Below are positions 16,590 to 21,145 of a stretch of 21,938 bases of DNA, piece after piece. Below the pieces are notes generated by a model. It worked only from the letters and a program-made list of their open reading frames with translations, was not told where the DNA came from and did no database searches. The stretch is from a virus: IMG/VR virus record IMGVR_UViG_3300031659_000115, positions 1-21,938 of that record. One strand, 5' to 3'. The position numbers and the translations under genes are program-made. Numbering within the stretch: the stretch's first letter is position 1; each line of letters starts with the position of its first letter.

Positions 16590-16867
16590 ATCAATCCCTT
16601 ACTAACTAAAATCTCTTGTGTTCGTTTCATTCCCATTAGGTGAGATAACAATAAGAACTCTTTGGTATATTCACTAGGCTTGCGTCCATCAAGAACATCA
16701 TGGCAGCTCGCACAGCAATAAGCACCATGAATATCCATAGCCTTCATTCCCATGCCTCCACCGTTTAAATGAGCAAAGACAACTGTTTCATTATTAGGTC
16801 CACTATAGCAAAGGTCGAGACGCACAGTACACGCTTGACCCCTTGCAGATTTTGTAATTTTACTCAT
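16586..16867 (-). CDS. YbcO-like (DUF1364) putative HNH-type nuclease
   Basis: A 93-residue protein with Cys13, Cys20 (RGQACTVRLDLC), His33 in VVFAHLN, GMGMKAMDIHGAYCCASCHDVLDG (about 38-61) and a C-terminal helix. The order R-G-x-x-C, A-H-L, G-x-G-x-K-x-x-D and C-C-x-x-C-H-D-x-(I/L/V)-D-G is that of the DUF1364 family, whose E. coli prophage member YbcO has a zinc-containing HNH-like nuclease fold. It probably acts on recombination or replication intermediates. It lies next to a NinB-like gene, as in lambdoid nin regions. Its ATG overlaps the stop of the upstream oxygenase gene (ATGA). GC content is about 42%, unlike that AT-rich neighbour. Confidence 0.78.
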   Translation of the reverse strand: MSKITKSARGQACTVRLDLCYSGPNNETVVFAHLNGGGMGMKAMDIHGAYCCASCHDVLDGRKPSEYTKEFLLLSHLMGMKRTQEILVSKGLM

Positions 16868-17424
16868 CTGAAGTTAGGTCCTTTTATCCACGCAACAAGT
16901 GAATGTCTTACACCTTTTGTAACAGGAGTAACTCTATGCCTAATAAATGATGGAAACACAATTACACTACCCTTGTTCTCAAACGAATCAAAAGTAAGTA
17001 TCTCACCATCTATTTCAAATTCCAATTTACCGCCACTATATTCTGATTTATCAGATAGTTGTATAACTATTGATAACTTTCTATCTAATAATTTATCGGT
17101 AATCATACTTTGGTCAATGTGCCAATCATAGAAGCCTTTATCTTTTCCTTTATACTCACCAAACTGTACAGCAAAATCTTTTACAATATCAAAACCAAAT
17201 GCTTGTGCGTTAGCATCTAGTATATATCTCCATATTTTCTCTTCTATATCTTTGTCTTTAATAAAACAAACTTTTGAAATTCTATAGTTTTTGTCTTGAA
17301 CTATAGAGCCATCTTCCATACCTATTTGACTATTTTCTAATCCGTTTTTAAGCGCAAGTTTTTTTGCTTTTACAATTAACTTGTTGGGTAAATCTGCTTC
17401 CCAAATCCACGTATTAAATTTCAT
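16864..17424 (-). CDS. 2OG-Fe(II) oxygenase, PKHD/PiuC-like (oxygenase 3)
   Basis: A 186-residue protein with a complete double-stranded beta-helix signature: iron ligands His102 and Asp104 (YDWHIDQS), distal His163 (SFIRHRVTPV) and 2-oxoglutarate-binding Arg173 (KGVRHSLVAW), ten residues after the distal His as expected. SGGKLEF (about 130-136) and GSVIVFPS match the PKHD-type hydroxylases (PiuC, YbiX). Known relatives hydroxylate proteins or small molecules; the substrate here is unknown. Two lines I counted average about 22% GC, far below the adjacent YbcO-like gene. It overlaps both neighbours by 4 bp. Confidence 0.85.
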   Translation of the reverse strand: MKFNTWIWEADLPNKLIVKAKKLALKNGLENSQIGMEDGSIVQDKNYRISKVCFIKDKDIEEKIWRYILDANAQAFGFDIVKDFAVQFGEYKGKDKGFYDWHIDQSMITDKLLDRKLSIVIQLSDKSEYSGGKLEFEIDGEILTFDSFENKGSVIVFPSFIRHRVTPVTKGVRHSLVAWIKGPNFR

Positions 17425-19124: not shown

Positions 19125-19249
19125 TAATCAGCCTTTTTAGTATTTTTACTAGTGCAATAAGGGCATCTACCACTTCTGTTGCGATGCTCTATTGGGTTTG
19201 TTCGTGTATATCTTTGTAAGCATTTATTACATGAATAGTCATATAGCAT
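19124..19249 (-). CDS. FmdB-like zinc ribbon protein, 41 residues
   Basis: The frame encodes MLYDYSCNKCLQRYTRTNPI, then HRNRSGRCPYCTSKNTKKAD. Two knuckles, C7-x2-C10 and C29-P-Y-C32, about 19 residues apart, together with the (I/L)Y-(D/E)-Y start, form a zinc ribbon like that of FmdB-type regulatory proteins, trimmed to the ribbon alone. Zinc binding is a safe inference; whether it touches DNA, RNA or protein is unknown. The ATG overlaps the stop of the HTH gene by one base (TAATG), and the TAA overlaps the next ATG in the same way. Confidence 0.65.
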   Translation of the reverse strand: MLYDYSCNKCLQRYTRTNPIEHRNRSGRCPYCTSKNTKKAD

Positions 19250-19485
19250 TAGAGGTCTCGTTCTCCAAGGTTTTCGTCTTCACCTAAGTAATTAGCAAGA
19301 CCATATACCGCCCAATGTAGTTGTGCTTTGTCTGCTTTGATTCTGTGCATTAATCCACTACGAGTACATCCTAATAGTTCAGCACATTTAGCTTGAGTAA
19401 TTCCTAATCTTTTAATTTCTACAGGTATTGAGTTAAAGTAGATAGTTCTACTGACATCTTTAAAAGCCTTCTGTTGCTTAGCCAT
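19249..19485 (-). CDS. Small HTH DNA-binding protein, probable regulator
   Basis: A 78-residue protein. Residues about 22-50 (VEIKRLGITQAKCAELLGCT then RSGLMHRIK) form a helix-turn-helix of the lambda Cro/XRE kind, with T-Q-x-x-x-A-E-L-L-G-C-T as helix 2 and turn, followed by a helix with HWAVYGLANYLGED. It is the first gene of the long leftward operon and stands next to the bidirectional regulatory region, a usual place for a phage switch protein. The start lacks a clear Shine-Dalgarno site in its short AT-rich leader. It may control its own promoter or the two rightward promoters that contain palindromic sites; that is inference. Confidence 0.72.
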   Translation of the reverse strand: MAKQQKAFKDVSRTIYFNSIPVEIKRLGITQAKCAELLGCTRSGLMHRIKADKAQLHWAVYGLANYLGEDENLGERDL

Positions 19486-19514
19486 GATTATTTATATTGT
19501 TGAATTAAGTTACT

Positions 19515-19523
19515 ATTATATCA
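19515..19523 (-). promoter_or_regulatory. Extended -10 promoter for the leftward operon
   Basis: On the minus strand the sequence reads TGATATAAT, a perfect -10 box with the TGn extension, placed so that RNA would start near 19508, about 23 nt before the HTH gene start. No good -35 box lies 16-18 bp upstream, which is usual for extended -10 promoters. It is the only strong promoter I see before the accessory and packaging genes. The same TGATATAAT occurs in both rightward promoters. Confidence 0.6.
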
Positions 19524-19562
19524 CTATGGCTACATTAGAACAGGTAAATTAACATTATTCCA

Positions 19563-20100
19563 CTCTAACTCCCGCACTATCGTTTGTGGGGCATCTACGT
19601 TTGAGCAAGCTCAAGCCTCGTTACCATGAGCTATGGTACAGCTCGTCACTTCGTTCCTCTGAGGGATAAATCCCCTTGGTAAGTCAAGAGCTAGAGCAGT
19701 TTAGTAATATTCGGTAATGAGAGGAGTTGGGGAAATCGGGGCGAAGAAAACCCAAGGCTAAATTAATAACCTTGAGGATTAACATTCGTATAAAGAGCCG
19801 AAGCAGTCTTCATCGTAAGGTCATATCTATAACAATATATGACTCATCCTTTTCACCACCCTGTTCGGGTTCGCTACCTCTGAAAAGATGCGCTAGATTT
19901 AAAACACTATACAGGTATTATCCTAATAAGTTCGTAACAAGGGTTGTAGGCTTTCCTTCTACATGTCCGAGTCTTGCCTCAGAAACCAATGACTTAATCT
20001 AACATCAACCAACAGCTTTACACATTTGTAGCTATCTCTGTTATTTTATTCAGGTGTGAGTGAATCCATTTGGATGACATATCACCTGTCGTGTAGGTGA
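19563..20100 (+). ncRNA. Large structured non-coding RNA region
   Basis: No credible gene lies here, but helices fill it. A closed domain is formed by 19563-19570 pairing with 19725-19732. Inside it are a bulged hairpin (19571-19577 with 19586-19591), a hairpin (19601-19605 with 19610-19614), and a helix 19616-19625 with 19713-19724 (2-nt bulge) enclosing a further hairpin (19628-19632 with 19640-19644). Further helices: 19753-19757 with 19770-19774; 19800-19803 with 19808-19811; 19820-19826 with 19837-19843; 19845-19855 with 19881-19890 (one bulged C) around 19858-19861 with 19867-19870; 19945-19949 with 19959-19963; 19970-19976 with 19987-19994; 20014-20022 with 20027-20033; 20051-20056 with 20083-20088 around an inner hairpin. 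Several pairs are G.U, which become A-C mismatches on the other strand, so plus is favoured. The 5' end and promoter are not defined. It may continue to the terminator at 20207. Family unknown. Confidence 0.5.
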
Positions 20101-20134
20101 AGTACCATATAGACCCATAAGAACCCAAGAAGGG

Positions 20135-20140
20135 TATAAT
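20135..20140 (+). promoter_or_regulatory. -10 box before a short RNA
   Basis: A perfect TATAAT with a poor -35 region (the best match, TAGACC, lies 19 bp upstream). The predicted start, 7-8 nt downstream, falls exactly at the first base of the hairpin at 20148, the same geometry as in the two rightward gene promoters. It may instead be an internal sequence of a longer RNA. Confidence 0.4.
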
Positions 20141-20146
20141 ACGTAT

Positions 20147-20207
20147 CTAGGTGGCGCAACACCTAATTCAAACCCTCGATTGATTTGTAGTCTTTCGGGG
20201 GTTTTTT
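20147..20207 (+). ncRNA. Short terminator-ended RNA, about 60 nt
   Basis: Downstream of the TATAAT box, a hairpin TAGGTG-GCGCAA-CACCTA (20148-20165) is followed by four bases and then a terminator hairpin. There is no reading frame of any size. The arrangement of 5' hairpin plus intrinsic terminator is that of a small phage RNA. It could alternatively be the 3' end of the larger structured RNA upstream. Nothing in the sequence shows a target. Confidence 0.42.
20170..20207 (+). terminator. Rho-independent terminator, rightward
   Basis: A ten-pair stem, AAACCCTCGA (20170-20179) with TCGGGGGTTT (20195-20204), contains one T.G pair and runs into TTTTTT (20202-20207). On the opposite strand the wobble becomes a mismatch and no U-run follows, so it works rightward only. 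It insulates the downstream early promoter from RNA made across the non-coding region. Confidence 0.78.
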
Positions 20208-20283
20208 CGTTCTAGGTGAAATTATAAACTAAGATTTGAAATAGATGTTGGGTATTTAATTTAATTATTTTTGTAACTTTCTA

Positions 20284-20311
20284 TTGACATGTGTATCGAA
20301 CATGATATAAT
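20284..20311 (+). promoter_or_regulatory. Consensus sigma70 promoter P1 for the rightward early genes
   Basis: TTGACA (20284-20289), a 16-bp spacer and TGATATAAT (20303-20311): perfect -35 and perfect extended -10. The spacer holds CATGT and ACATG half-sites as an inverted repeat centred near 20296, a possible operator. Bases 20297-20311 are identical to 21074-21088 of the second promoter. RNA should start at about 20318, 49 nt before the first gene. Confidence 0.88.
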
Positions 20312-20317
20312 ATCTCC

Positions 20318-20339
20318 ATCAACCACACTTTAGGTTGGT
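20318..20339 (+). promoter_or_regulatory. 5'-end leader hairpin of P1 transcript
   Basis: ATCAACC (20318-20324) pairs with GGTTGGT (20333-20339), 7 pairs including one T.G, with an 8-nt loop. It begins at the predicted +1. Such 5'-terminal stems protect mRNA from 5'-end-dependent decay in characterised bacterial messages. The equivalent position after P2 also forms a hairpin but with a different stem sequence. Confidence 0.55.
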
Positions 20340-20340
20340 A

Positions 20341-20369
20341 CTTTAAAACACAAACGGAGATTCAAAATG
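20341..20369 (+). repeat. Ribosome-binding leader repeat, copy 1
   Basis: A 29-base unit beginning CTTTAAAACACAAACGGAGA and ending at the ATG of the next gene. GGAG lies about 9 nt before the ATG. It differs from copy 2 at one base, and copy 3 is a near match. It serves as the translation start cassette of the 103-residue gene. Confidence 0.75.
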
Positions 20370-20678
20370 ACAAACTTAGAACTACACAACCTAGCAAGAG
20401 AAAACGCTAACAAAGCAGTTGATGCTTATATTAAAGAAAACGGTGAAACTCAATATTGTGGTTACACTTATGTAAAGATTAAAGGTACTACATCTTTCTA
20501 CCGAGACCTTAAAAAACAAGGACTAACATCAAGAGATTGTGCAAGAGGAATGATGGTTGATGATATTTTAGACACCAACACTCAATCACTAGATGTTAAA
20601 GAAGCGGGTGTTGAGGCTTACGCTAACACATTATTAGAAAACAATATTTATGCCTTTGCAGGCTCTGTAGCACTTTAA
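20367..20678 (+). CDS. Early protein of unknown function, 103 residues
   Basis: First gene of the rightward unit. It encodes an N-terminal helix (TNLELHNLARENANKAVDAY), a beta segment (QYCGYTYVKIKG), a middle helix with DLKKQGLTSRDCARG and a C-terminal helix ending AFAGSVAL. G-Y-T-Y-V-K-I followed by a small helical domain suggests a compact alpha/beta fold. No motif that I recognise. The gene is preceded by the strongest promoter in the window, a leader hairpin and a GGAG site, so it should be abundantly made early in infection, like phage proteins that act on host machinery. That role is inference. Its stop codon lies inside the next leader repeat. Confidence 0.68.
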   Translation: MTNLELHNLARENANKAVDAYIKENGETQYCGYTYVKIKGTTSFYRDLKKQGLTSRDCARGMMVDDILDTNTQSLDVKEAGVEAYANTLLENNIYAFAGSVAL

Positions 20679-20701
20679 AACACAAACGGAGATACAAAAT
20701 G
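20673..20701 (+). repeat. Ribosome-binding leader repeat, copy 2
   Basis: The same 29-base unit as copy 1 with one T-to-A change, ending at the ATG of the 99-residue gene. It starts inside the previous gene: its CTTTAA supplies the last codon (CTT) and TAA stop. There is no promoter in front of it. Confidence 0.75.
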
Positions 20702-21067: not shown

Positions 21068-21080
21068 ATGTTCCGAACAT
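21068..21080. promoter_or_regulatory. Operator-like palindrome upstream of P2 -10
   Basis: ATGTTC-C-GAACAT is a perfect 6-bp inverted repeat around one base, overlapping the extended -10 by its last base. Its right arm is conserved in P1 while the left arm is degenerate there (3 of 6 bases). A protein bound here would block RNA polymerase. The small HTH protein or the winged-helix protein are the local candidates. Confidence 0.5.
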
Positions 21081-21088
21081 GATATAAT
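21074..21088 (+). promoter_or_regulatory. Extended -10 promoter P2
   Basis: The 15-base core CGAACATGATATAAT is identical to P1, including TGATATAAT. Unlike P1, there is no recognisable -35 at 16-18 bp, so P2 should be weaker or depend on an activator. RNA should start at about 21095, 48 nt before the 52-residue gene. Confidence 0.75.
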
Positions 21089-21094
21089 TACCCC

Positions 21095-21116
21095 ATCAAC
21101 GAAACATTTCGCTGAT
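21095..21116 (+). promoter_or_regulatory. 5'-end leader hairpin of P2 transcript
   Basis: ATCA (21095-21098) pairs with TGAT (21113-21116) and CGAA (21100-21103) with TTCG (21108-21111), with one A/C mismatch between and an ACAT loop. It starts at the predicted +1, as in P1, but the stem bases differ, so the fold is kept while the sequence has changed. Confidence 0.55.
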
Positions 21117-21117
21117 A

Positions 21118-21145
21118 CTTTAAACTAAAAACGGAGATTCAAATG
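21118..21145 (+). repeat. Ribosome-binding leader repeat, copy 3
   Basis: A 28-base relative of copies 1 and 2: CTTTAAAC, then AAAACGGAGATTCAAATG. It is one base shorter with a few changes before the GGAG. It ends at the ATG of the 52-residue gene. Confidence 0.7.

Follow-up and report, generated by a model that had tools for sequence, protein, structure and literature searches.

The locus raises the question of what lies in the gap between two diverging gene blocks of a virus, and on which strand. The window, i.e., the whole stretch of DNA that was analysed, is a virus record of 21,938 bp from an uncultured marine phage. Its leftward gene block includes the terminase and virion genes, and its rightward block consists of small genes. 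Between the two opposed blocks are 880 bp (19486-20366) in which, as an earlier reading of the sequence had stated for about 540-650 bp, there is no credible open reading frame (ORF). A 91-aa frame at 19727-20002 lacks a counterpart at that position in most relatives. No tRNA or tmRNA was detected in a scan of the 21.9-kb window, and the Rfam covariance models (4,227 families) gave no match at the gathering score in the window or in eight loci. Seven sub-threshold Rfam matches in 19486-20366 (E 1.5 to 9.8) were taken as chance. To the right, similar promoter/leader segments recur ahead of successive rightward genes (20297-20366, 20672-20698 and 21074-21143).

Relatives were fetched by two routes: the terminase gave at least 595, of which the best 80 were taken, and the small left-hand gene gave three loci. 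Local blastn with the intergenic region detected a nearly full-length copy, about 70% identical, in L009, near-identical copies in L084 and L085, and weaker copies in L023, L024, L025, L026 and L030, all in the same orientation; the match in L014 was partial and inverted. The best-conserved stretch, GGTGTGAGTG...GACATATCACC, served as the motif for one exact scan of IMG/VR, which returned 71 stretches. Counting all sequences, with the window and the earlier loci, there were 76 motif matches. Removal of 26 with identical cores left 50, and removal of one with a short upstream part and nine more at 95% identity or higher left 40, the window included, with a mean pairwise identity of 0.62. An enlarged set of 112 sequences was reduced to 59. 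The sets from the motif scan and from the scan with the left-hand protein overlap, with many contigs common to both.

The sequence-only reading had proposed a large structured RNA at this divergence point, perhaps of a new class, and had named covariation among homologous regions as a check. Such covariation was found. In the RNA-sense alignment of the 40 core sequences, RNAalifold gave 26 pairs, 20 of them with compensatory double changes, including all six pairs of H4 and all five of H4b. After identical rows had been merged for pair counting (40 to 36), 95.4% of the pairing cells could pair as opposed to 77.1% in shuffles, and the covariation score was 0.524 as opposed to 0.185, in both cases with shuffles that ignore the kinship of the sequences. 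When the partners were slid by 1-3 columns, the score was 0.117 or lower. Few pairs survive a strict phylogenetic null: against tree-simulated alignments (20 alignments), eight column pairs reached E 0.2 or better, seven of them canonical, and with the 59 sequences five passed, four of them canonical. The non-canonical covarying pair in the run with 59 sequences lies at window positions 19787/19712, and there was likewise one in the smaller run. H5 is cleanly reduced to a small hairpin in four members (L030, L094, L102 and L135), as expected of a structural RNA. With this covariation, and with no Rfam match at gathering or better than E 1.5, the proposal of a large structured RNA is supported.

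The helices that had been drawn from the single sequence fared unequally. Compensatory changes back part of the helix 19845-19855/19881-19890, namely its outer six pairs and the inner hairpin (H4 and H4b). On the RNA-sense strand, the 5′-domain helix 19563-19570/19725-19732 would contain two A.C mismatches. In the window, a duplex in a shifted register could form (-13.2 kcal/mol); six other sequences gave -3.9 to -10.5 kcal/mol in differing registers, so the helix scheme for this domain is unsupported and was not kept. The first arm of another proposed helix, 19616-19625/19713-19724, lies within a variable stretch.

The RNA had been assigned to the plus strand on the ground that G.U pairs favoured it, and we arrived at the opposite strand. 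The plus-strand fold of 19545-20210 is barely better than shuffled sequence (z -1.52; one shuffle in 20 equalled or beat it). Over the 40 relatives, in the columns from about H0 to H7, the mean z was -0.74 for the plus strand and -1.98 for the minus strand, and the minus strand was more stable than the plus in 39 of 40 sequences. When 12 helix segments were read as plus, there were 112 A.C cells among 2,143 and 45 G.U cells, totals in which misaligned pairs, a double count of some H5 pairs and one non-paired H5 position (30 of the A.C cells) are included. The best helices, H3 and H4, have no G.U cell when read as plus, and 9 and 6 A.C cells, respectively. In the minus sense, helices 1-3 of the pair count (1, 2 and 3 are H4, H4b and H3; 4 and 5 are H1) have 23 G.U cells and no A.C cell. 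One position that is a C.A mismatch when read as plus becomes U.G in the minus sense in 39 of 40 sequences. Therefore, the large RNA is read from right to left: the G.U argument is reversed, as the exceptions in the conserved helices on the plus strand are A.C and not G.U, and the plus-strand working model was overturned by this A.C excess. The intergenic region thus carries a conserved structured RNA on the minus strand.

The sequence-only reading had missed a promoter-terminator unit on the opposite strand, over the 5′ end of this RNA. For its promoter and terminator, 47 sequences were counted (3 of the 50 were too short). The -10 box was exactly TATAAT in 46 of 47, a -35 box matching at 4 of 6 positions or more (spacing 15-19) was present in 43, and the -10 box was TG-extended in 30. 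The window itself offers no better -35 than TAGACC (spacing 19), which is weak. A hairpin with a T-run follows the promoter in 45 of 47 sequences as compared with 3 of 47 segments shuffled by mononucleotide, again regardless of kinship; L104 lacks the terminator and L141 lacks both promoter and terminator. Of the 59 sequences, 13 without the exact motif plus TATAAT were excluded from the hairpin count. By a permissive criterion that asks for 4 bp or more, all 46 usable sequences have the first antisense hairpin; its stems vary, and there are 16 distinct loops of 6-8 nt. These features predict a separate plus-strand RNA with its own promoter and terminator, antisense to the 5′ end of the large RNA. 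The transcript would be about 60 nt, end at 20207 and be complementary to roughly 65 nt at the predicted 5′ end of the large RNA. Two members differ at this place. L141 (5838-6100) keeps the RNA body without the antisense unit and has the right-operon promoter near the RNA 5′ hairpin. In L104 (1-180), an ORF stands after the antisense TATAAT in place of the hairpin and terminator, by recombination or an assembly join.

The 5′ end of the large RNA was placed near 20213 because of a minus-strand -10 box. The box is TATAAT in the same context in 12 of the 59 sequences, the window included, and TATNAT before a conserved box in 34; thus it accompanies the antisense unit in 46. Neither form was found in the other 13, at least two of them, L138 and L153, being truncated. 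Under a permissive spacing, 23 of the 34 TATNAT members have a -35 that matches at 4 of 6 positions or more. The only TATAAT member with a -35 that is good by eye is L133 (TTGACA, spacing 16); the window is among those without one. The 3′ end probably lies near 19741, at the terminator-like H1, or near 19560, which would give a length of about 470-650 nt. A consensus scan of the window listed none of the antisense promoter, its terminator and the minus-strand promoter, so these three calls rest on conservation. The features are collected in Table 1.

Table 1. Features of the intergenic region and its borders in the window.
Feature	Position	Strand	Basis
Small HTH-like protein gene, family A2	19249-19485	-	HTH by eye
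-10 box of the left gene's own promoter	19515-19523	-	sequence
Large structured RNA	19560-20213	-	covariation and strand tests; ends predicted
Conserved core H1-H4 (model R1)	19743-19898	-	core alignment A1 and model R1
H1 (19748-19754/19775-19780), then U-rich stretch on minus; terminator-like	19748-19780	-	
H3 (19820-19825/19838-19843)	19820-19843	-	double changes in 6/6 pairs
H4 (19845-19850/19885-19890) with inner hairpin H4b (19858-19861/19867-19870)	19845-19890	-	covariation
H5 arm, closing helix 19894-19899/19996-20001	19894-20001	-	alignment, length variants
H7 hairpin (20051-20056/20083-20088), holds the motif of the collection scan	20051-20088	-	
Antisense -10 box TATAAT	20135-20140	+	conservation
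Predicted antisense RNA: hairpin 20148-20165, terminator 20170-20207	20147-20207	+	conservation
Predicted -10 box of the large RNA, TATAAT	20221-20226	-	conservation; predicted
Right-operon promoter TTGACA-16-TATAAT	20284-20311	+	consensus scan

The covariance model R1 found 8 matches in the 83 loci L004-L086, all known before; a weak reverse match in L023 (E 0.044) was disregarded. Among 77 loci fetched by the left-hand protein alone, the RNA core was just upstream on the same strand in 73 (six of these matches are cut by the locus end, one of them at E 0.027 only). The other four had no forward match and only 59-174 nt upstream. Two weak reverse matches in these loci (E 0.51 and 0.65) were disregarded. 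In another set, R1 was present in 3 of 9 loci; four of the six misses had 36-266 nt upstream, and the remaining two, L242 and L245, carry an inverted unit. By inspection, L014/L242 and L245 have the same kind of left gene, with the promoter-hairpin-terminator unit inverted relative to the flanking operons; therefore, the unit need not serve the left operon as its leader. In these loci (L014:3000-3870, L242:2330-2760 and L245:2330-2760), the inverted unit and an RNA body unmatched by R1 lie between flanking genes of the same kind.

The left-hand 78-aa HTH-like protein had no match in Pfam or PHROGs and none to a Rep family. In L024, L025 and L090, related near-palindromes containing AATATTAGTA lie over the left and right promoters that flank the RNA, and these are possible operators for the left-hand protein. 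On the right, 15 loci have a flank of 4.6 kb or more; all 15 encode a family A3 protein, and 11 encode a single-strand binding protein (SSB). The window-like A3 members share 13-19% identity with the L105 member, so their inclusion in the family is less certain. For the L105 member, the predicted fold (pLDDT 82, pTM 0.46) was closest in Foldseek to the Mgm101 and Rad52 annealases (E 4.3e-4 and 1.9e-3; TM 0.28-0.33 on the query), and the protein is predicted to be Rad52/Mgm101-like. Elsewhere in the window, upstream of the terminase, two further genes lie on the minus strand: 16864-17424 is 2OG-Fe(II) oxygenase-like, and 18388-18966 matches a PHROG with the annotation ferrochelatase. Similar genes are present in G001.

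Outside the uncultured viral contigs, the searches were fruitless. In genome_contigs, which covers 84,980 species genomes, the motif occurred once, in L154 from a bacterial genome; this match was taken as chance as R1 finds no RNA core there. The GenBank phage records searched held no relative of the RNA, a single 36-nt match at E 0.9 being taken as chance, and two queries against 72,556 plasmid records revealed no similarity. The element is therefore known here from uncultured viral contigs only. No description of the RNA family was found in the open-licence literature searched; the family is new to Rfam and to that literature, and its plan of organisation is already known.

That plan, a long folded RNA opposed by a short RNA with diversifying loops, has the parts and the order of RNA II and RNA I of ColE1, and its best-known examples are plasmids whose DNA copying is started by RNA alone. 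As in ColE1, there is a long structured RNA, here with a structure drawn from covariation and a predicted length. As there, a short RNA on the opposite strand would begin inside the long one and terminate at its 5′ end, which here is read from sequence, and the hairpin loops of the antisense RNA are of 6-8 nt and variable between relatives. ColE1 replicates without an encoded initiator, through a persistent RNA-DNA hybrid that RNase H cuts and from which Pol I primes. ColE1 also has a G-rich stretch; by eye, none like it was recognised near the 3′ end here. There was no match to plasmid records either. The ColE1 antisense RNA is described as longer than 100 nt with three hairpins, and its loops determine compatibility (PMC9458437). 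The predicted antisense RNA here is, in contrast, about 60 nt with two hairpins and belongs to phages, for which priming is a hypothesis. A phage precedent is provided by cluster A mycobacteriophages, where prophages of phages without repA are described as having RNA-based origins (PMC7157519). There too, a non-coding RNA region of a phage is implicated in replication, but no antisense partner is described in that part of the source (PMC7157519).

On the ColE1-like parts and order and the mycobacteriophage precedent, we therefore favour, tentatively and at somewhat less than even confidence, an RNA-based start of replication metered by an antisense RNA. The large minus-strand RNA would be made by the host RNA polymerase. 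Its fold would allow leftward DNA synthesis to start, or an R-loop to form, at the divergent region with host enzymes. The short RNA would pair loop to loop with the nascent 5′ end, refold the large RNA and so limit initiation, and replication might later be amplified by the phage SSB and the Rad52-like annealase.

The gene content of RNA-bearing phages bears on this replication reading. The 39,232-bp record G001 appears near-complete because its terminase-adjacent ORF is divided over its two ends, with 535 aa at one and 540 aa at the other. It has 54 ORFs of 60 aa or longer; 40 of them were searched against Pfam and/or PHROGs (17 against both, 23 against one library). Among the proteins found were an SSB, a C5 methylase, NinB-like and YbcO proteins, a 2OG-oxygenase-like protein and virion proteins, and many others were of unknown function. 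No polymerase, primase, helicase, initiator or integrase was recognised in these 40 of 54 ORFs, and ParA had no match in them or in 10 window proteins. DNA_pol_A was found in 0 of 18 records (8 RNA-bearing and 10 RNA-less). DnaB_C gave no match above the cut-off in the 18 records, hence in none of the 8 RNA-bearing ones, and one sub-threshold match in an RNA-less record. Since the RNA-less relatives also lack both above the cut-off, the absence of polymerase and helicase was rejected as a sign specific to the RNA and is only permissive evidence. GC skew tracks gene direction and was therefore discarded as evidence of an origin.

Besides the covariation, the strand and the antisense unit, we counted in favour of an RNA-based origin the inverted unit, the left gene's own promoter, the A3 protein and SSB on the right, and the lack of a recognised initiator among the 40 ORFs compared in G001. 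Against it we counted the leader-like position of the RNA, which runs in the direction of the HTH-like gene and lies beside it in the 73 of 77 loci, the terminator-like H1 in many members, and the RNA body kept in L141 without the antisense unit. The 13 of 59 sequences in which no minus -10 box was found, the small number of pairs that pass the strict phylogenetic null and the many G001 ORFs of unknown function also weigh against it. The absence of the antisense and minus-strand promoters from the consensus scan and of a ColE1-like G-rich stretch was also counted against it. So was the role of the mycobacteriophage RNAs, which lie next to parABS and act in maintaining the prophage, lytic growth being normal when they are absent (PMC7157519).

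The strongest rival, which we hold to be somewhat less likely, makes the large RNA a 5′ leader that belongs to the left operon. The antisense RNA would toggle this leader between two forms, one antiterminated and one ended by the H1 terminator, and so set expression of the HTH-like and later genes. In control of the pT181/pIP501 type, an antisense RNA switches a leader between these two forms, and an antisense RNA against a leader and a terminator-like hairpin are the points of likeness here. The direction of the RNA and its place next to the HTH-like gene fit such an attenuator, the four exceptional loci being too short, as does the U-rich stretch after H1 on the minus strand in many members. 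By eye, AAUCUCU, which is the 5′ strand of H1, could also pair with an AGAGAUU that is conserved upstream; the window itself disrupts this pairing. H1 in the window is listed by the consensus scan, where one such site is no more than in shuffles (mean 0.5, sd 0.7). H1 passes a strict terminator scan in 18 of 59 sequences, and its U stretch is weak, by eye, in the L103/L105 subgroup. Further against an attenuator, a TATAAT belonging to the HTH-like gene itself lies downstream of the RNA in 41 of the 59 segments searched (several of the misses start beyond it), and the unit is inverted in L014/L242 and L245. The locus also differs from the pT181/pIP501 systems: no rep gene was recognised downstream here, the downstream gene has its own promoter, and the fold is larger and more elaborate.

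An ornate RNA acting in trans, as the scaffold, cage or sponge proposed for GOLLD and ROOL, with its level set by the antisense RNA, is unlikely. The size, the elaborate fold and the phage origin agree with it. GOLLD and ROOL form homo-oligomeric cages, and GOLLD is often close to tRNA islands (PMC12286853). Identity with either, which had been suggested for an Rfam check, was not borne out: neither model matched up to E 10 in 19486-20366 or at gathering in the window or the eight loci, and the window has no tRNA. Such an RNA, moreover, needs neither a fixed site between two promoters nor a dedicated antisense RNA. That the element acts as DNA with a folding single strand, e.g., a hairpin origin, is very improbable. 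It does sit at the divergence point of two operons, but the G.U-type exceptions are on one strand only (the 23 G.U and 0 A.C cells of helices 1-3), as expected of a transcribed strand, and promoter-like boxes stand on either side. A large RNA on the plus strand can be set aside almost entirely: that strand is foldable and carries the terminator 20170-20207, but it has A.C in place of G.U in the conserved helices and the worse energies, and its promoter and terminator bound only about 60 nt.

A second, unrelated structured-looking RNA family was observed in terminase relatives (L041:1490-1840, L044, L047, L050 and L252-L331), in which R1 finds nothing. The RNA lies about 5.4 kb upstream of the terminase in L041, L044 and L047, and a pattern scan returned 85 stretches, 80 of them new loci. 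With 34 of 76 sequences, RNAalifold gave -132 kcal/mol for the motif sense as compared with -116 kcal/mol for the opposite one; the G.U/A.C counts (18/20 in the motif sense, 28/23 in the opposite) do not decide the strand. By eye, a terminator on the opposite strand and a TATACT-like box stand near the 5′ end. No Rfam match was obtained for L041, L044, L047 and L050, and L252 had no match in phage records or plasmids. A broader proposal, which we put forward with more reserve than the RNA-based origin itself, is that a class of marine phages without a recognisable initiator may start replication by an antisense-controlled structured RNA, and that relatives may swap in the unrelated L041-type RNA, of similar layout, at the same place.

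The phage RNA family appears to be undescribed. Its strong covariation and its predicted built-in antisense partner make it a ready test of whether RNA control of the plasmid kind is used by phages to start or meter their replication. If the RNA-based origin is true, it would help to explain how copying starts in small phages without recognisable polymerase or initiator genes. Even as a leader, the element would be an unusually large antisense-controlled RNA switch for phages.
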